A stretch of 36,961 nucleotides of DNA from a virus. Position 1 is the first letter of the stretch. Each line of letters begins with the position of its first letter. The stretch spans positions 1 through 36,961 of IMG/VR virus record IMGVR_UViG_3300035181_001968. The stretch is one strand, 5' to 3'. Under the pieces are notes generated by a model that saw only the letters and a program-made list of their open reading frames with translations, searched no databases and was not told where the DNA came from. Of this stretch, positions 3,062 to 36,634 are shown one piece after another. A program made the translations under genes and the position numbers.

Positions 3062-4405
3062 ATGACAATAGAAAAGAAAACTTTAGTATGCTCAGATGCT
3101 GTGAATAACAACAATAAATTTTGGAGCTATGAGTATGACACTGACACATCAATATGTATCGTTAAGTACGGACGAGTAGGTAAAACCGCTACTGAAGATC
3201 CTCCTAAGCACATGTCACGTTCTGAACTTGACACCAAGATCCGTGAAAAACTGCGTGCTCGCGGAAAAGAAGGTACCCCTACCTATAAACCTCCTTATCG
3301 TGAAATCGCAGTTGTGATTGACACGGTTCCCACAGATCCAGCAGCTAATCTATCAAAAGAAGTTGTGCGTGAAGCGGCAAAAAGTCAACTTGCAAAAAAT
3401 AATAGTGAGCTATCAACCCTCGTTGAACGCTTAGTTGAAGCTAATCGCCACGAGTTGATAAAAACTTCAGGTGGTCAGATGGACATTGATCTCAAGACAG
3501 GGATCATCTCTACTCCGATCGGAGTAATTACAAAAGATACAGTAAAACAAGCGCGTGACATACTGGATAACTTGTCGATCTATGTCAATAAGCATGACTT
3601 TGATGCTAAACAGTACATTGAGTACTTGAACTCTTACTTGATGATGGTTCCACAACAAGTAGGACATGCACGAGGTTGGTATAAGAACTTTTTCAATACA
3701 CACAACACCCTAACAAAACAAAGCTCTTTGCTTGACCAGCTTGAAGCTTCGGCTGACTTGGCTGAAAGTCGTTTACTTGCGGCTAAGAATGGAGCCGTTC
3801 AAACCGCAATTTCAGATACACCTGACATCTTCAATGCAAAGCTGAATATCTTGACTGATAAGGCTGACATCGCCAAGATCGAAAAACTGTTCTATGACAC
3901 GATTAATGCTAATCATGATTCAAAAAATATGAAACCTGTACGTTTCTATGAAGTTGAGATCCCACATACAAAAGCAGCATTTGAAGCTGACGGTGCTAAG
4001 CTGCACAACATTCAGCTTCTATGGCATGGAACTCGTGTTTTCAATGTTTTATCTATTTTAAAGAATGGATTATTCTGCCCTCCAAAATCTGGATCCTTCC
4101 ATGTAACAGGCCGTATGTTTGGTGATGGAATTTATGGTTCAGATCAATCTTCTAAAGCGTTAAATTATTCAAGAGGTGGAACTTGGGATCATGGTCCAAT
4201 TGATAAATCGTGTTTTATGTTTTTAGTAAATTTTGGATTAGGTGATATGTACATTCCAAAGAGTTCATATGAAACTTTACCAAAACCCGGATATCATTCA
4301 ACATTTGCAAAACCAGGAGTATCTGGAATTCTTAATAATGAATTTATTGTTTATCGTAGCAGTCAAGTTGATATTAGATATCTAATTGAATTTGAAGAAA
4401 AATAG
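3062..4405 (+). CDS. poly(ADP-ribose) polymerase-like protein (WGR + helical + ART domains)
   Basis: A 447-residue PARP-family ADP-ribosyltransferase with three recognisable parts. Residues about 8-80 form a WGR-like domain (FWSYEYD, IVKYGRVGK). Residues about 115-245 align by eye with the PARP regulatory helical domain (TPIGVITKDTVKQARDIL resembles the PLGKLSKRQI region; NSYLMMVPQQVG resembles NRFYTLIPHDFG). Residues about 290-447 are the catalytic domain: LLWHGTR (H322), MFGDGIYGSD (Y358), NYS (Y369) and NNEFIVYRSSQVDIRYL (E427). H322-Y358-E427 reproduces the H-Y-E triad, so it should be active. Two nicotinamide- or adenosine-contact positions of PARP1 differ (Y889 to R351, S904 to A366). 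The site GGAGAAAGC precedes the ATG. The target is unknown; a Nudix hydrolase lies downstream. Confidence 0.93.
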   Translation: MTIEKKTLVCSDAVNNNNKFWSYEYDTDTSICIVKYGRVGKTATEDPPKHMSRSELDTKIREKLRARGKEGTPTYKPPYREIAVVIDTVPTDPAANLSKEVVREAAKSQLAKNNSELSTLVERLVEANRHELIKTSGGQMDIDLKTGIISTPIGVITKDTVKQARDILDNLSIYVNKHDFDAKQYIEYLNSYLMMVPQQVGHARGWYKNFFNTHNTLTKQSSLLDQLEASADLAESRLLAAKNGAVQTAISDTPDIFNAKLNILTDKADIAKIEKLFYDTINANHDSKNMKPVRFYEVEIPHTKAAFEADGAKLHNIQLLWHGTRVFNVLSILKNGLFCPPKSGSFHVTGRMFGDGIYGSDQSSKALNYSRGGTWDHGPIDKSCFMFLVNFGLGDMYIPKSSYETLPKPGYHSTFAKPGVSGILNNEFIVYRSSQVDIRYLIEFEEK

Positions 4406-18821: not shown

Positions 18822-19586
18822 ATGGGACGGTTACATGAAATTCTAGCAGTTGAAAAAGGTACTACCGCAGCTGCAAATAAACTTCTTCAAGATACTGAAC
18901 ACAAGTTCGGTAATGAAAACTTTTTCAAGGGCTTTTCAAAGTCACTGACAATGATTGAAGGTACTCCAGAAAATCAAAAACTTGAAGAAGCAAACCGTTC
19001 TGACCGAGCAGTGCCGACTACTGTGTACGAAACATTGGAATACGCGTTAGCTGCATGGTCAAAAGCTGAAGATGTGATCTTTCAGAAGAACAAAACCAAT
19101 CAAATTGCTATCAGCAACATTGAATTTCGTGGTGATGTAATCGCACAAGATATTCCTGTTGATGAACTCATGGGTCTTGAATCCCGTCTTGAAGGGATCC
19201 GCAAAGTATTTGATCGGATGCCGACTCTTGATGCAGCTAAATCATGGGAAATTGATACAGGTAAGGGTAAGTACATCTGGAAGGCAGTCAACCCAGAAAT
19301 CACGACCAAGACTGAAAAGATCTTGGTACCTGTTGAGATGTCTAAAGCCACTGAACATCACCCTGCTCAAGTTCAAGCAGTAACGAAGGACCAAGTTGTA
19401 GGTAACTATGTTACCCTGAACTGGTCAGGTGCTACAACGTCAGCTCAAAAAGCTGAAGCTCTAGCTACTATTGATGAACTGATCTCTGAAGTAAAGAAGG
19501 CCCGGATGCGGGCCAACAGTGTAGAAACTGTTAATGACAAGATTGGAAACGTGATTGTTGATCTGTTACTTGCTCCACTGAAATAA
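18822..19586 (+). CDS. conserved protein of unknown function
   Basis: A 254-residue soluble protein. The ATG at 18822 is preferred over 18810 because GGAG (18812-18815) is correctly spaced for it. The opening MGRLHEILAVEKGTTAAANKLL, then FFKGFSKSLTM, and the middle VIAQDIPVDELMGLE with RLEGIRKVFDRMPTL belong to a family I have seen in phages and bacteria (opening of the type xLHExLAVEKxLxxxA) with no known function. It stands alone behind a strong early promoter, directly before the permuted tRNA genes, and is probably made early. Confidence 0.7.
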   Translation: MGRLHEILAVEKGTTAAANKLLQDTEHKFGNENFFKGFSKSLTMIEGTPENQKLEEANRSDRAVPTTVYETLEYALAAWSKAEDVIFQKNKTNQIAISNIEFRGDVIAQDIPVDELMGLESRLEGIRKVFDRMPTLDAAKSWEIDTGKGKYIWKAVNPEITTKTEKILVPVEMSKATEHHPAQVQAVTKDQVVGNYVTLNWSGATTSAQKAEALATIDELISEVKKARMRANSVETVNDKIGNVIVDLLLAPLK

Positions 19587-19688
19587 CTAGGCGCTTCAGC
19601 TTTTAGTACTTAGTTTTAGCTTTTTGCTCTTTAAAATTTTTAGTAGTAAAGGATTATGGCATCGTTATCATTATCATTATTCATTAGA

Positions 19689-19798
19689 TAGCTTACCATC
19701 TTTATTTCCTGTCTTTTGACGTGAAGGTTCGAGTCCTTCCTCCCACACCCATGTGGGAGTGGTGAAATTGGTAAACACCTGGAAACTTAGGTAAGCTA
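19689..19798 (+). tRNA. circularly permuted tRNA-Leu(UAG)
   Basis: The 3' half precedes the 5' half. The 3' half (19705-19746) has anticodon-stem strand TTTCC, a 13-base class II variable arm (GTC-TTTT-GAC), T-arm GAAGG-TTCGAGT-CCTTC and acceptor strand CTCCCAC. After ACCCAT comes the 5' half (19753-19790): GTGGGAG, TG, D-arm GTG...CAC, anticodon strand GGAAA and CTTAG. Acceptor (7/7) and anticodon (5/5) stems pair perfectly. GGTAAGCTA (19790-19798) after the 5' half pairs 9/9 with TAGCTTACC (19689-19697) before the 3' half. TTATGGC (19654-19660) and GCCATAA (19828-19834) add a 7-bp outer helix. Joining CTTAGG to A gives a normal Leu loop CTTAGGA. No 5' half lies upstream. Confidence 0.8.
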
Positions 19799-19896
19799 GC
19801 TATGACTATAGTTATATTTTTCGTATCGCCATAACACCTGTATCATAAAGCTGTTGTTGTACTAGTTGGGAGTTTTTTAATTACAGAGATCATTCT

Positions 19897-19994
19897 ATAA
19901 TTAGCGATTGGAAGTCGGTGGTTCAAATCCATCTCCCGTCACCACTATATGACGGGGTACCTCAGTGGCCAGAGGACCAATAAAATTTAGTTAT
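19897..19994 (+). tRNA. circularly permuted tRNA, isotype unclear
   Basis: The 3' half (19907-19944) reads ATTGG, AAGTC, T-arm GGTGG-TTCAAAT-CCATC, TCCCGTC, ACCA. The 5' half (19951-19981) follows after CTATAT: GACGGGG, TA, D-arm CCTC-AGTGGCCA-GAGG, A, CCAAT. Acceptor (7/7 with one G.U) and anticodon (5/5) stems pair. TAGTTAT (19988-19994) pairs with ATAATTA (19897-19903), and ACTAGTTCAA (20012-20021) with TTGTACTAGT (19857-19866; 9 of 10 pairs). Loop bases on the two sides (AAAATT and GCG) do not show an obvious U33 and anticodon, so I give no amino acid. Confidence 0.72.
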
Positions 19995-20077
19995 CATAAA
20001 CTCACTCAGTTACTAGTTCAATGATGGGGACGAAAATCCGAAGATTCCTATACATAGCGGGCAATGCTAGTCTAGGG

Positions 20078-20121
20078 GTCTTTCTAAATTGTTAAATTCT
20101 AATAATTTAGAAAGACTTTAT
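20078..20121 (+). terminator. terminator after the permuted tRNAs
   Basis: A 13-bp perfect stem GTCTTTCTAAATT (20078-20090) with AATTTAGAAAGAC (20104-20116), then TTTATTT. It closes the transcript that carries both permuted tRNAs. Confidence 0.75.
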
Positions 20122-20149
20122 TTACTTTTAATCTAAAGCATGTTATAAT
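20121..20149 (+). promoter_or_regulatory. T4-like early promoter for the tRNA cluster
   Basis: TTTACT (20121-20126), 17 bases, TATAAT (20144-20149). It lies directly behind the terminator and 13 bases before tRNA-Gly. Confidence 0.8.
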
Positions 20150-20161
20150 AAATAAAATTAT

Positions 20162-20247
20162 GCGGGTGTAGCCTAGAGGTCAGGCACTTGCCTTCCAAGC
20201 AAGCAGACGTAAGTCGCACGCAGGTTCAAATCCTGTCACCCGCTCCA
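20162..20247 (+). tRNA. tRNA-Gly(UCC) with long variable arm
   Basis: Acceptor GCGGGTG/CACCCGC, D-arm GCCT-AGAGGTC-AGGC, anticodon arm CTTGC-CTTCCAA-GCAAG, T-arm GCAGG-TTCAAAT-CCTGT, encoded CCA. The variable region is 16 bases with a GAC-GTAA-GTC hairpin, unusual for a glycine tRNA. Confidence 0.88.
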
Positions 20248-20926: not shown

Positions 20927-20950
20927 GACATTGTATAGATTAGAATTTTG

Positions 20951-21493
20951 ATGAAAATAAATGATCTTTTTACTGGATTTGTACCATCTCTTAATGAGAT
21001 CTTTGATACAAAAATTCCAGTCGAAAATTGGATGACATCAAAATCTGGAGCTAGAATCGGTAAACTTGAAGTAGATGAAGATTTGTATTTGATTGAACTT
21101 ACACCTCATACATATGATTTTCAAACAACTACATACAAGTTTATTAACGTAAGTTTTAAAAAGATTATTAATGGAAAAGAATCAGAAGATCTTACTTTTA
21201 CAAATAAAACAGGATCAAAGGTTATCGGTTCCATTGTACATGGTGTAATAGATGAGTTAAAAAACTTTGATGCAGATGCTATTGTTTTCATTGCAACTGA
21301 TCATATAGAACAACGAATGAGAATTTATAATCGTTTATTTAGTAATCTAGGTGGACTCATCAATAGTGAATTTTCCGGTTCGATTAAAGATATAAAAATC
21401 CCTAATGGGAACATGAGTATTATCTTAAATAAACGTATTTCTAACGAAGATGTAAATAGTTTTGTTGAATATTTAAAAACTGTTAATAAATGA
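20951..21493 (+). CDS. conserved phage protein B of a paralogous pair
   Basis: A 180-residue protein from the ATG at 20951, one codon after a TTG. It shares the fold pattern of the gene at 20330: KFINVSFKKI, then TGSKVIGSIVHGVIDELKNFDADAIVFIATD, then QRMRIYNRLFSNLGG. The N-terminus IDELFTGF-like (KINDLFTGFVPS) differs. No catalytic motif is obvious, although the conserved D-A-I-V-F-x-A and R-x-x-x-Y positions suggest a nucleotide- or RNA-related fold. It lies between tRNA-Met and tRNA-Thr. Function unknown. Confidence 0.68.
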   Translation: MKINDLFTGFVPSLNEIFDTKIPVENWMTSKSGARIGKLEVDEDLYLIELTPHTYDFQTTTYKFINVSFKKIINGKESEDLTFTNKTGSKVIGSIVHGVIDELKNFDADAIVFIATDHIEQRMRIYNRLFSNLGGLINSEFSGSIKDIKIPNGNMSIILNKRISNEDVNSFVEYLKTVNK

Positions 21494-25301: not shown

Positions 25302-25463
25302 TAGATGTTGTTAAGGAATTCAAGTAGTTTAGCGGCGAGAACGGAGCTGAAGGCTAGTTCATCAGAATTAAGGTACCTTGATTCTGAAAAGAAAACCGTG
25401 AGGTGCTTTCGTGCAGGTCAGACCTTGGTTCGAATCCAAGCTTGAATTCCTTAACAGCATCTA
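25302..25463 (+). tRNA. interrupted tRNA-like element with 23-bp flanking helix
   Basis: Acceptor ATTCAAG (25318-25324) pairs with CTTGAAT (25441-25447). A D-like arm (GTTT...GAAC) and a T-arm CTTGG-TTCGAAT-CCAAG are clear. The acceptor pairing extends outward without a break to 23 bp (25302-25324 with 25441-25463, one G.U). Between the D- and T-arms are about 76 bases instead of about 26. They include a 12-bp inverted repeat (TCAGAATTAAGG/CCTTGATTCTGA). One reading is a split anticodon arm: CGGAG-CTGAAG (Phe-like GAA), about 50 extra bases, then C-TTTCG. The isotype is uncertain. Confidence 0.5.
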
Positions 25464-27067: not shown

Positions 27068-27141
27068 AGTTCTTTAGCTCAATGGTAGAGCAATCGACCG
27101 ATAATCGATAGATGAAAGTTCAACTCTTTCAAGAACTACCA
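27068..27141 (+). tRNA. tRNA-Ile(GAU) with C33
   Basis: Acceptor AGTTCTT/AAGAACT, D-arm GCTC-AATGGTA-GAGC, anticodon arm ATCGA-CCGATAA-TCGAT, T-arm GAAAG-TTCAACT-CTTTC, ACCA encoded. U33 is C, as in tRNA-Val. Confidence 0.88.
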
Positions 27142-27196
27142 GTTACTTTCTAGTCTAGTAATAGGATGTCTGGTTCGATTCCAAGGAGGGCTGCCG
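27142..27196 (+). pseudogene. tRNA 3'-half remnant
   Basis: T-arm-like TCTGG-TTCGATT-CCAAG followed by GAGGGCT-GCC, without its own D-arm. The 5' strand AGTTCTT of the preceding tRNA-Ile could pair with this acceptor strand too (three G.U pairs), suggesting a duplicated 3' half. Confidence 0.45.
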
Positions 27197-27201
27197 TAAG
27201 T

Positions 27202-27384: not shown

Positions 27385-27460
27385 TCTGTCTAAGCTAATC
27401 TAGTGAAAGCGCTGCGCTGAAAACGCAGAGAGGTTGGAGCAAAACCAACAGACAGAACCA
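27385..27460 (+). tRNA. tRNA-Phe(GAA), alternative elbow
   Basis: Acceptor TCTGTCT/AGACAGA, A8-A9, D-arm GCT-AATCTAGTGAA-AGC, anticodon arm CTGCG-CTGAAAA-CGCAG, T-arm GTTGG-AGCAAAA-CCAAC, ACCA encoded. Confidence 0.88.
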
Positions 27461-33517: not shown

Positions 33518-34315
33518 TTGAAAACGTTTAAACAGTATATTCAAGAAGCATCAGTGACTCCAATCAAATCAACTCCGATTGATTTACAAGAGGCATTTAA
33601 AGTCATTAAGAAGAACTGTTCCGATTCATTGTGGATGTTCGAATTTAAGACTCCGATATGGAGAGGAGAAAAACAACAAAATTCAATCTTAGGAAAAGAT
33701 GGAGTTGCTGTTATTGACACGACGAAATCAGAACGGAAAAGCAAAAATACAAGTAATTGGTACACGTTGATTATCGACAATAGTCCAAAATATAAAGAAT
33801 ATCCAAAAAGAAGTCAATCGCTTATCTGCACGAATAATATTAAATCCGCTGAGGTATATGGAACCCCTATGGCAGTTATTCCATTTAATAGCGCTAAAAT
33901 TGGAGTAGTCAATGCTCCAGATATATGGGATAAAACGATTACTATGGGCGATGAAAGAATGGACATCGAAAGTGCAAACAATTATTTTAATATTCTTAGA
34001 GAATTCGGACTTTCCGACACCAATTGGCAATCATTCGTTGATTTTGACAAGAAACTGAAAACCGATGAAAACTTTAGAGAGGAAGTAGAAGATAGTGTTG
34101 AAGACAAACCTTTAGAAGGCTTGTTGGATGATTTCGTTAATAAAGTCAGAAAAATGTATGATTATCTAGGATTTGAGTTGCTAACCCCAAAACAATATGA
34201 AAAAAGACCGACGACAAGTCGTGAAACAGAAATGTGGGTTGGTGGAGAAGTTGTGTGCCTTAGTGAAAATATTTTCAAAACACTATGTAACGAGTTCAAA
34301 ATTGAAAACATTTAA
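33518..34315 (+). CDS. putative injected ADP-ribosyltransferase, copy 1
   Basis: 265 residues, TTG start. Residues 1-11 MKTFKQYIQEA resemble the N-terminal capsid-targeting peptide of T4 internal head proteins, with a prohead-protease site I-Q-E|A. The rest has the order of an R-S-E ADP-ribosyltransferase: W48-R49-G50; SERKSKNTSNWYTLIIDN; KRSQSLICT (S99/S101) followed by a helix and G; AVIPFNSAKIGVVNAPDIW; and E236-T-E238 in RETEMWVGGEVV (ExE). I therefore infer a mono-ADP-ribosyltransferase packaged in the head and delivered with DNA, as with T4 Alt. It overlaps copy 2 by 14 bases. The enzymatic call comes from motif reading, not alignment. Confidence 0.65.
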   Translation: MKTFKQYIQEASVTPIKSTPIDLQEAFKVIKKNCSDSLWMFEFKTPIWRGEKQQNSILGKDGVAVIDTTKSERKSKNTSNWYTLIIDNSPKYKEYPKRSQSLICTNNIKSAEVYGTPMAVIPFNSAKIGVVNAPDIWDKTITMGDERMDIESANNYFNILREFGLSDTNWQSFVDFDKKLKTDENFREEVEDSVEDKPLEGLLDDFVNKVRKMYDYLGFELLTPKQYEKRPTTSRETEMWVGGEVVCLSENIFKTLCNEFKIENI

Positions 34316-35099
34316 ACAATATATTCAAGAAGCATCAGTGACTCCAATTAAATCGACTCCGATTGATTTACAAGAGGTAAAAGAAATTATTAAAAAGAAC
34401 TGCTCTGATTCATTGTGGATGTTTGAAACCAGAACAGCGATATGGAGAGGTGAAAAGCAACAAGATTCAATCTTAGGAAAAGATGGAGTTGCTATCATTG
34501 ACACAACAAAATCGGAACGGAAAAGTGCATCCGCGAGTAATTGGTACACGTTAATTATCGACAATCATCCAAGATATAAAGAATATCCAAAAAGAAGCAA
34601 GTCACTTATCTGTACGAATAATATAGAAACTGCTGAAGCATATGGAACCCCTATGGCAATTATACCATTTAATAGCGCTAAAATTGGAGTAGTCAATGCT
34701 CCAGATATATGGGATAAGACGACTACTATGGGAGATGAAGAAATGGACCTATTACGTGCAAACAGTTATTTTAATATTCTTAGAGAATTCGGACTTTCAG
34801 ATACTAACTGGCAATCATTCATTGAGTTCGATAAGAAACTGAAAACCGATGAAAACTTTAGAGATTCAGTAGAAAATAGCGTTAAAGGCAAACCTTTAGA
34901 GGACTTATTCGATGATTTTGTTAATAAAGTTAGAAAAATGTATGATGATCTAGGATTTGAATTGCTAAATCCAAAACAATACGAAAAGAGACCGACGACA
35001 AGTCCTGAAACAGAAATGTGGATTGGTGGAAAAGTTCTATGTCTTCGTGAAAGCATTTTCAAAACATTGTGTAGCGAGTTCAAAATTGAAAACATTTAA
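34302..35099 (+). CDS. putative injected ADP-ribosyltransferase, copy 2
   Basis: 265 residues from the TTG at 34302, which lies inside the last codons of copy 1; the start is fixed by identity of MKTFKQYIQEAS with the other copies and by GAGTTC upstream. It is very close to copy 1 along its whole length. WRGEKQQ, ERKSASASNWYTL, KRSKSLICT and PETEMWIGGKV keep the R, S and ExE positions. Differences cluster around residues 140-155 (MGDEEMDLLRANSYF) and in the central acidic stretch. A longer in-frame reading back to 34197 would lie inside copy 1 and is rejected. Confidence 0.65.
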   Translation: MKTFKQYIQEASVTPIKSTPIDLQEVKEIIKKNCSDSLWMFETRTAIWRGEKQQDSILGKDGVAIIDTTKSERKSASASNWYTLIIDNHPRYKEYPKRSKSLICTNNIETAEAYGTPMAIIPFNSAKIGVVNAPDIWDKTTTMGDEEMDLLRANSYFNILREFGLSDTNWQSFIEFDKKLKTDENFRDSVENSVKGKPLEDLFDDFVNKVRKMYDDLGFELLNPKQYEKRPTTSPETEMWIGGKVLCLRESIFKTLCSEFKIENI

Positions 35100-35871
35100 A
35101 CAATATATTCAAGAAGCATCAGTGACTCCAATTAAATCGACTCAACTTGATCTACAAGAAGTAGAAGAAATTATTAAAAAGAACTGCTCTGATTCATTGT
35201 GGATGTTTGAATCTAAGACTCCAATATGGAGAGGTGAAATGCGACAAGATTCAATCTTAGGAAAAAATGGAGTTGCTATCGTTGACACAACAAAATCGGA
35301 ACGAAAAAGTCAAAATACAAGTAATTGGTACACGTTAATTATTGACAATCATCCAAGATATAAAGAATATCCAAAAAGAAGTCAATCGCTCATTTGTACG
35401 AATGATATCGAAACTGCTAAAAGATATGGAACCCCTATGGCAATTATACCATTTAATAATGCTAAAATTGTGATAGTAAATGATCCAGATATATGGTATA
35501 AAATAATTGTAATGGGCAATGAAAGAATGATGATAGAAAATGCAAACGATTATTTTGATATTCTTAGAAAATTCGGACTTTCAGATACCAATTGGCAGTC
35601 ATTCATTGATTTTGATAAGAGATTGAAAACCGATGAAAACTTTAGAGATTCAGTAAAAGATAGTGTTGAAGGAAAACCAATAGAGAGTTTGCTGGATGAT
35701 TTTGTTAATAAAGTTAGAAAAATGTATGGTGATCTAGGCTTTAAATTGCTGACTCCAAAACAATACGAAAAGAGACGTGAAACAGAAATATGGATTGGTG
35801 GAGAAGTTGTGTGCCTTAGTGAAAGCATTTTCGAATCATTGTGTAGCAAGTTCAAAAATGAAAACGTTTAA
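35086..35871 (+). CDS. putative injected ADP-ribosyltransferase, copy 3
   Basis: 261 residues from the TTG at 35086, again overlapping the previous gene by 14 bases. WRGEMRQ, KRSQSLICT and RETEIWIGGEV are kept, while the loop before ExE has lost the four residues PTTS present in copies 1 and 2. The region MAIIPFNNAKIVIVNDPDIWYKIIVMGNERM differs most from the other copies, where the consensus is SAKIGVVNAPDIW, so target or regulatory contacts may differ. The targeting peptide MKTFKQYIQEA is unchanged. Confidence 0.63.
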   Translation: MKTFKQYIQEASVTPIKSTQLDLQEVEEIIKKNCSDSLWMFESKTPIWRGEMRQDSILGKNGVAIVDTTKSERKSQNTSNWYTLIIDNHPRYKEYPKRSQSLICTNDIETAKRYGTPMAIIPFNNAKIVIVNDPDIWYKIIVMGNERMMIENANDYFDILRKFGLSDTNWQSFIDFDKRLKTDENFRDSVKDSVEGKPIESLLDDFVNKVRKMYGDLGFKLLTPKQYEKRRETEIWIGGEVVCLSESIFESLCSKFKNENV

Positions 35872-36634
35872 ACAATATATTCAAGAAGCATCAGTAATTC
35901 CGATTAAATCGACTCAACTTGATCTACAAGAAGTAGAAGAAATTATTAAAAAGAACTGTTCTGATTCGTTGTGGATGTTTAAACGCAGAAGAACAATATG
36001 GAGAGGTGAAAATGATCTGAATTCAATTTTAGGAAAAGATGGAGTTGCTATCATTGACATAACAAAATCAGAGCGGAAAAGTCAAAATACAAGTAATTGG
36101 TACACGTTAATCATCGACAATAGTCCAAAATATAAAGACTTTCCAAAAAGAAGTCAATCGCTAATTTGTTCGAGTAATATAGAAATTGCTAAAGCATTCG
36201 GGCCCCCTATGGCAATCATACCATTTAATAGCGCTAAAATTGGAGTAGTTAATACTCCAGATATGTGGAATAAATCAGTTATTATAGGCGGCAAAAAAAT
36301 GGACGTCGAAGTAGCAAATAAGGTTTTTAATCCGCTTAAAAAATTTGGGCTTTCTGATACCAATTGGCAGTCATTCATCGATTTTGACAAAAAACTAAAA
36401 ACCGACAAAAAATTTAGAGAGGAAGTAGAAGATGATGCTGAAAGCAAACCTTTAAAGAGCTTATTTGATGATTTTGTTGTCAAAATTAGAGGACTATATG
36501 ACAATCTAGGATTCGAATTGCTAACTCCAAAACAATATGAAGAAAGAACAAAGAAAAGACGACGCGAAACAGAAATGTGGATTGGTGGAAAAGTCGTGGC
36601 TCTTAGTAAAGAAGTTTTTGAAACAATATTATAA
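35858..36634 (+). CDS. putative injected ADP-ribosyltransferase, copy 4
   Basis: 258 residues with a normal ATG (35858), unlike the TTG of copies 1-3. It is the most diverged copy: MFKRRRTIWRGENDLN, RSQSLICSSNIEIAKAFGPP, MWNKSVIIGGKKMDVEVANKVFNPL and KKRRRETEMWIGGKVVALSKEVF. R, S and ExE positions remain. It ends earlier (FETIL-stop) and does not overlap the next gene; 11 bases containing GAGTTC separate them, so the array's overlap pattern breaks here. Confidence 0.63.
   Translation: MKTFKQYIQEASVIPIKSTQLDLQEVEEIIKKNCSDSLWMFKRRRTIWRGENDLNSILGKDGVAIIDITKSERKSQNTSNWYTLIIDNSPKYKDFPKRSQSLICSSNIEIAKAFGPPMAIIPFNSAKIGVVNTPDMWNKSVIIGGKKMDVEVANKVFNPLKKFGLSDTNWQSFIDFDKKLKTDKKFREEVEDDAESKPLKSLFDDFVVKIRGLYDNLGFELLTPKQYEERTKKRRRETEMWIGGKVVALSKEVFETIL

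Follow-up and report, generated by a model that had tools for sequence, protein, structure and literature searches.

The two permuted tRNA-like elements of the viral DNA analysed here (the window, that is, the 36,961-nt stretch formed by positions 1 to 36,961 of IMG/VR record IMGVR_UViG_3300035181_001968) are best explained, with a probability that we put at roughly 0.6, as tRNA-mimic domains of one conserved non-coding RNA that is encoded behind a gene for a DUF7873 protein and would form a particle with that protein. In each of the two permuted cloverleaves, g1 and g2, the half with the T arm precedes the half with the D arm, and both elements sit directly 3′ of the 258-aa DUF7873 gene (Table 1). 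Sequence and covariation show that each domain combines T and D arms with an acceptor stem and that enclosing helices anchor it, through its anticodon end, in a larger RNA; because the acceptor end is closed by a short linker, the halves appear swapped.

The window bears out the structural part of the sequence-only reading, which had described swapped halves with 7/7 acceptor pairing, linkers of 6 and 10 nt, 5/5 stems at the anticodon position, and, outside g1, a 9 bp helix and the 7 bp helix TTATGGC/GCCATAA: all are present in the sequence. Both elements also have a 5/5 T stem and a complete D stem. Neither ARAGORN nor cmscan reports a tRNA in normal order from 19586 to 20162, in agreement with the earlier statement that no halves in normal order lie nearby. 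Folded alone, the g1 region adopts the permuted cloverleaf, set upon an extended helix (-57.2 kcal/mol, z -4.1), and 1 of 200 shuffles folds equally well. A search for terminator-like hairpins returns one, as compared with a mean of 0.4 in shuffles.

Table 1. Features of the DUF7873 and RNA locus in the window.
Feature	Position	Strand	Remarks
DUF7873 gene, 258 aa	18810..19586 (start may be 18822)	+	directly upstream of the RNA
g1 outer helix, 5′ strand TTATGGC	19654..19660	+	pairs with 19828-19834, 7 bp; compensated in relatives
Conserved 6-nt-periodic segment TCGTTATCATTATCATT	19662..19678	+	16/17 to phage motif GCGTTATCRTTRTCRTT
g1 inner enclosing helix, 5′ strand TAGCTTACC	19689..19697	+	9 bp with 19790-19798; in minimum-energy fold
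g1 3′ half: anticodon-position strand TTTCC, variable arm, T arm, acceptor 3′ strand CTCCCAC	19705..19746	+	
g1 anticodon-position stem, TTTCC/GGAAA	19705-19709/19781-19785		5/5
g1 T arm	19723-19739	+	
g1 acceptor stem, CTCCCAC/GTGGGAG	19740-19746/19753-19759		7/7
g1 linker ACCCAT	19747..19752	+	6 nt; closes acceptor end; family-wide position-specific CCA conservation
g1 5′ half: acceptor 5′ strand GTGGGAG, D arm, anticodon-position strand GGAAA	19753..19785	+	
g1 inner enclosing helix, 3′ strand GGTAAGCTA	19790..19798	+	9 bp
g1 outer helix, 3′ strand GCCATAA	19828..19834	+	context TCGTATC-helix-CAC conserved
g2 outer helix (candidate), 5′ strand CTGTTGTTG	19851..19859	+	9 bp including G-U with 20019-20027
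g2 inner enclosing helix (candidate), 5′ strand ATAATTAG	19897..19904	+	8 bp including G-U with 19987-19994
g2 3′ half: ATTGG, variable loop, T arm, acceptor 3′ strand TCCCGTC	19907..19940	+	
g2 anticodon-position stem, CCAAT/ATTGG	19977-19981/19907-19911		5/5
g2 acceptor stem, TCCCGTC/GACGGGG	19934-19940/19951-19957		7/7, one G-U
g2 linker ACCACTATAT	19941..19950	+	10 nt; CCA encoded after discriminator A
g2 5′ half: acceptor 5′ strand GACGGGG, D arm, CCAAT	19951..19981	+	
g2 inner enclosing helix (candidate), 3′ strand TTAGTTAT	19987..19994	+	
g2 outer helix (candidate), 3′ strand CAATGATGG	20019..20027	+	
Terminator-like hairpin	20075..20119	+	20-pair stem and T run; would end the RNA

Permuted tRNA-like elements were repeatedly seen in the DNA behind DUF7873 in the first phage relatives. 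A pattern scan for DUF7873 gave 213 viral and 221 genome (bacterial or archaeal) stretches, and the best 80 of each, 160 other loci in all, were searched with a detector comprising a T stem, a TTCRA loop, acceptor pairing, and a D arm with a GG loop. At a loose threshold, an element lies within 1.2 kb downstream of DUF7873 in 79 of the 80 genome loci and 67 of the 80 viral loci, counts that apply to loci chosen through DUF7873, a choice by which most RNA copies without the protein would escape; the upstream control gives 1/80 and 5/80, respectively. The sole genome locus without a downstream match (L103) has a 122-bit covariance-model match upstream instead, and two elements are present in 48/80 genome loci. 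At a strict threshold (5/5, 7/7, linker of at most 40 nt), 138 of the 160 loci have at least one element within 1.2 kb downstream, and there are 180 matches in 189 kb of downstream DNA vs. 6 in 1,138 kb elsewhere. The 186 strict matches hold 120 distinct acceptor sequences, and acceptor strands from different loci, when re-paired, match 7/7 in 2.1% of cases only. The RNA and DUF7873 co-occur from phages to Actinomycetes, Myxococcota, Chloroflexota, Armatimonadota, and others, and the window, with two elements directly behind the gene, shares this arrangement. The contrast of 180 vs. 6 matches, combined with the covariation described below, rules out chance or a tandem-tRNA artefact. We conclude that the permuted elements are real and far more widespread than first stated: the same arrangement recurs behind DUF7873 genes in relatives, and the elements are not confined to phages but also occur in bacterial chromosomes.

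De novo consensus folding with RNAalifold of 36 chromosomal g2 modules recovers the permuted acceptor (7 bp), T (5 bp), and D (4 bp) stems together with three enclosing helices, with double-sided changes in 28 of 32 pairs. In this consensus 95.1% of cells are paired, vs. 74.4% in shuffled alignments, and the covariation score is 0.614, vs. 0.217 in shuffled alignments (reached in 0/500 shuffles) and 0.11-0.14 in slid controls. The same core is found in 44 chromosomal g1 modules, with 98.5% of cells paired. In the alignment of chromosomal g2 modules (A4), an internal loop with a conserved cTGTGA opposite CTGA, kink-turn-like in appearance, lies between the cloverleaf and the enclosing helix formed by columns 49-54/160-165.

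Compensatory changes are seen in these chromosomal g2 enclosing helices and in the g1 outer helix of close phage relatives; the outcome that would have refuted the sequence-only reading, stems in relatives that fail to covary, was not observed. In close relatives the 3′ strand of the g1 outer helix usually stands after TCGTAT[C/T] or a close variant and before ACA or CAC, and the helix itself is compensated: TTATGGC/GCCATAA in the window is replaced by CTTGGCA/TGCCAAG, TGAGGC/GCCTCA, GTTAGGT/ACCTAAC, CTAGGCG/CGCCTAG, GTTGGC/GCCAAC, TCAGGC/GCCTGA, and TCAAGGC/GCCTTGA. When 43 loci are pooled, weak motif matches included, the helix reaches at least 6 bp in 27/43 (vs. 38% of shuffles) and at least 7 bp in 8/43 (vs. 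10% of shuffles). The pooled comparison is thus a weak test outside close relatives, and the case for the helix is its fixed sequence context within them. In relatives with a single head the offset of the 3′ strand falls from ~170 to ~50-80 nt, making g1 an optional insert in the hairpin closed by this helix.

Further conserved segments flank the heads. The phage motif matches at 14/17 or better in 23 of 78 viral loci, vs. 0.2 expected. At L113, L142, L105, and most other chromosomal loci a 6-nt-periodic tract, (ARRYTN)n, stands before g1, often after GGAG; T at 6-nt spacing in runs of at least four occurs in 56% of chromosomal loci, vs. 6% when shuffled. The tract may be a repeated protein-binding site or may hide coding (K-L-K-L or S-L-S-L if translated). 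A covariance model (R1) built from chromosomal copies only gives, in each of ten whole genomes, a top full-length match beside DUF7873 (56-166 bits), with partial matches of 29-51 bits elsewhere that are mostly of the kind given by tandem ordinary tRNAs. The model scores 98 bits in phage Mimi, 29.1 bits for window g2 (19887-20006, E 6.7e-5), and 28.3 bits for window g1, and, since tandem ordinary tRNAs reach 28-29 bits, the window scores alone prove little. The membership of the window is therefore argued from synteny, the 7/7 acceptors, and the shared flanking motifs.

According to the sequence-only reading, the elements were tRNA genes matured by an endonuclease and a ligase. Its account of halves that are swapped, paired with each other, and under structural selection has held; the account of their maturation has found no support. 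In its full form, that the elements are true permuted tRNA genes whose halves are cut and then sealed by the Rnl1-type RNA ligase that the phage encodes (1813-2997) or by a host ligase to yield codon-reading tRNAs for the phage, this explanation is distinctly improbable. The best case in the window for a real tRNA is g1, which has a good tRNA-Leu(UAG) body and a tRNA-Leu(UAG)-like anticodon-position loop, CTTAGGT; some other phage elements likewise have plausible anticodon loops (e.g. CTGAAAG, CTTAAAT), and the window phage carries a tRNA array (ARAGORN) alongside its ligase, with which ligation may occur. The loop of g1 and the Rnl1-type ligase thus leave the permuted-gene explanation some probability for that element. 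However, the loop is not conserved across elements: T occupies position 33 in 37/83 phage elements, window g2 has the loop AAAATTT, which lacks U33, and contiguous pairing at the anticodon position extends over anything from 1 to 11 bp, with at least 6 bp in 90/228 elements. Moreover, covarying helices continue beyond the anticodon end in chromosomal copies, many phage linkers prolong the acceptor as a hairpin, no RNA-ligase gene stands beside the chromosomal units scanned, and the g1 junction in the window has, in place of a bulge-helix-bulge (BHB) motif, a 7×4 internal loop that lacks the two 3-nt bulges and the 4-bp helix of that motif. Decoding by these elements in general appears unlikely.

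Permuted intron-exon arrangements can be engineered, and on this model a group I intron, split between the two flanks, would splice the exons. Bacterial tRNA introns are indeed of the self-splicing type (PMC4390854), but the Rfam matches at E≤10 in the window and in locus L003 include neither group I nor group II introns nor any self-cleaving ribozyme, and no such family appears at gathering scores in 15 loci, a comparison that a permuted core could escape. The flanks, at ~110 nt, also look too short for two catalytic cores, and we regard a permuted self-splicing intron as hardly credible.

The acceptor end is conserved in its sequence as well as in its pairing. CCA stands exactly after the discriminator in 98/183 elements, vs. 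0-18 at each other offset examined, and of 67 distinct chromosomal acceptors 62 have G at position 1. The conservation of CCA and G1 indicates that in many members the acceptor end is probably seen by tRNA enzymes; the conserved discriminator and CCA, with G1 in chromosomal copies, further suggest that such enzymes may cut the linker in some members. A cap with a structural role alone would hardly be expected to keep CCA and G1, which would fit a processed, perhaps aminoacylated, end. These features speak for a rival reading in which RNase P and tRNase Z cut every linker, the free CCA ends are aminoacylated, the pieces stay base-paired as in two-piece tmRNA, and the charged particle is held or delivered by DUF7873. 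Permuted two-piece tmRNA probably matures by RNase P/tRNase Z (PMC3985003), and circularly permuted tRNAs served as photoaffinity probes of RNase P RNA (Nolan 1993, cited in PMC9433436). The linkers tell against a cut in every member. Chromosomal linkers are short (median 7 nt) and viral linkers longer (median 27 nt), and 27 of 44 long phage linkers self-pair, extending the acceptor as a hairpin and often placing CCA inside the helix, an RNase P anti-determinant (PMC9433436). In addition, CCA is missing in about half of the elements, and no locus scanned by ARAGORN has a tmRNA. Alanine identity as in tmRNA was also considered and rejected, G3:U70 not being enriched in chromosomal copies (4/36 g2, 2/31 g1). 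We therefore consider a multi-piece RNA with universal cleavage unlikely. A bolder reading, which we hold to be rather unlikely, would be an undescribed ancient RNP common to phages and bacteria, in which host RNase P cuts within one or two permuted tRNA heads of the DUF7873-bound RNA to give a multi-piece RNA whose internal CCA ends are charged or capped and are used outside normal decoding (in ribosome, tRNA, or RNA quality control).

The DUF7873 assignment is secure (PF25283; E 4.5e-67, 226.8 bits vs. a Pfam gathering cut-off of 27), and homologues occur in 73 phage records with hosts that include Klebsiella, Rhizobium, Vibrio, Gordonia, Arthrobacter, and others. The literature searched yielded no paper naming DUF7873. 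An AlphaFold2 model (mean pLDDT 93.7, pTM 0.69) consists of helices and two long strands; Foldseek searches with it of the PDB and of viral structures gave no match with E≤0.001, and a sequence-profile search of the PDB gave insignificant matches only (best E 0.07). In view of this lack of a significant structural match, it is synteny that argues for RNA binding by DUF7873. The gene is nearly always single-copy and is patchily distributed, being present in 25/297 genomes of the class of an Actinomadura genome (~8% of the Actinomycetes-class genomes sampled) and 7/141 genomes of the phylum of a Nannocystis genome (5% of Myxococcota). Its bacterial neighbours are unrelated genes (kinase, RecQ, riboflavin synthesis, resolvase, dehydrogenase), and the next-largest neighbour cluster is found in 9/80 loci, from which DUF7873 and the RNA appear to be a two-part unit. 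Neighbour ORFs were picked by length; in GC-rich loci this tended to select ORFs on the antisense strand, and roughly half of the DUF7873 genes dropped out, so infrequent neighbours could have escaped notice. An RNA-repair operon was considered and rejected, no conserved RtcB, TROVE, or Band-7 neighbour being found among the neighbours scanned. In phage NiceHouse a Band-7-like gene adjoins the DUF7873 and RNA locus.

The patchy, single-copy bacterial distribution, and the frequent occurrence of the elements in phages with tRNA arrays and RNA-repair genes, would also suit a decoy or sponge, with tRNA-like heads that soak up anticodon nucleases, or other effectors directed at tRNAs, when phage and host are in conflict. 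Yet no anticodon loop is conserved, four window proteins tested give no defence-family match, and the chromosomal neighbours scanned include no recognised defence genes, and a decoy is in our judgement very improbable.

Our preferred reading remains the tRNA-mimic RNA with DUF7873 as its partner. DUF7873 would bind the RNA, possibly at the 6-nt-periodic segments, and the two would form a particle, whose tRNA-shaped heads would dock with tRNA-binding partners, such as RNase P, tRNA-modifying enzymes, or a nuclease. In some members tRNA enzymes may cut the linker, with the pieces then held by base pairs. Such a mechanism would need neither ligation nor codon reading. If correct, it would establish a new kind of tRNA-mimic particle, present in phages and in the ~8% and 5% of sampled genomes given above, it would make tRNA permutation an RNA scaffold architecture in bacteria and viruses, beyond gene disorder, and it would supply a candidate partner RNA for DUF7873, a protein family of unknown function. 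The system can be tested in culturable hosts (Nonomuraea, Actinomadura, Glycomyces) and phages (Klebsiella FBKp24, Arthrobacter Mimi, Gordonia Ziko). A permuted RNA would also account for mis-annotations: the deposited ‘tRNA-Sup-TTA’ of Klebsiella phage FBKp24 (L005:5018-5097) sits on the second permuted element, in its 3′ half, and is a probable example.

Several other features of the window were recorded. At 25305-25460 there is a tRNA-like element in normal order, with an acceptor helix of ~20 bp (GTTAAGGAATTCAAG/CTTGAATTCCTTAAC), a well-formed T arm, and a stretch of ~80 nt where the anticodon arm would be (fold z -6.05), for which BLAST gave no phage match. An isolated sequence resembling a tRNA 3′ half (GTCTGGTTCGATTCCAAGGAGGGCTGCCG) lies at 27141-27200 with no 5′ half nearby, and a tRNA missed by ARAGORN is recognised by Rfam at 27385-27457 (50.2 bits). 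A PARP-type protein with WGR, PARP_reg, and catalytic domains (3062-4405) adjoins the Rnl1 RNA ligase. Four tandem paralogous ORFs of 265-300 aa (MKTFKQYIQEASVTPIKST...) occupy 33518-36634, the first without a Pfam match, and no homologue was found for the 181-aa ORF at 20948-21493.

Among known systems, Rfam at gathering scores identifies no family but tRNA in 15 loci, which sets aside GOLLD and other large phage RNAs, and the literature searched holds no description of permuted tRNAs in phages or bacteria. Burroughs and Aravind reportedly described in 2016 a novel tRNA-like molecule with SPFH/Band-7 genes in bacterial RNA-repair systems. That molecule is likewise a tRNA-like non-coding RNA of bacteria, but the present RNA has no conserved Band-7 or RtcB neighbour among those scanned, a Band-7-like gene adjoining it in one phage, NiceHouse. 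The RNA thus probably represents a class new to Rfam and to the literature searched, though the 2016 work may already describe it in part.

The permuted tRNA genes of algae and an archaeon, of which 34 are listed for six algae and one archaeon, mature through a BHB motif, splicing endonuclease, and circular RNA (PMC3978253). Like g1 and g2, they have the 3′ half upstream of the 5′ half, a short linker, and complementary acceptor strands, which pair 7/7 in both window elements, and the loop of window g1 is tRNA-like; unlike them, the present elements show no BHB in the window and lack a consistent anticodon loop, and they are enclosed by helices and accompanied by a protein. Permuted two-piece tmRNA shares with the present RNA the acceptor 3′ part before the 5′ part, CCA and G1, and plausible RNase P/tRNase Z processing (PMC3985003), but the present RNA has one or two tRNA-like domains, in which D and T arms are complete, and shows no enrichment of G3:U70, and no tmRNA is found by ARAGORN in the window or in 20 loci, or by Rfam. 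In YrlA the 5′ and 3′ ends of the RNA form a basal stem bearing a tRNA-like domain with D, T, and acceptor arms, which docks PNPase (PMC8394870). YrlA/Rsr is thus, as here, a protein-linked non-coding RNA with a tRNA-like domain borne on a basal stem, a resemblance confined to topology, and a domain on such a stem must be closed at its acceptor end. The partner differs, being DUF7873 rather than TROVE/Ro60 (Rsr is a Ro60 homologue), with no TROVE match among window proteins or neighbours scanned and no rsr-rtcBA operon, and the present RNA is often two-headed, with conserved flanking segments and no Rfam family but tRNA matched at gathering. We conclude that the RNA is a member of neither the YrlA nor the tmRNA class and resembles both in topology.
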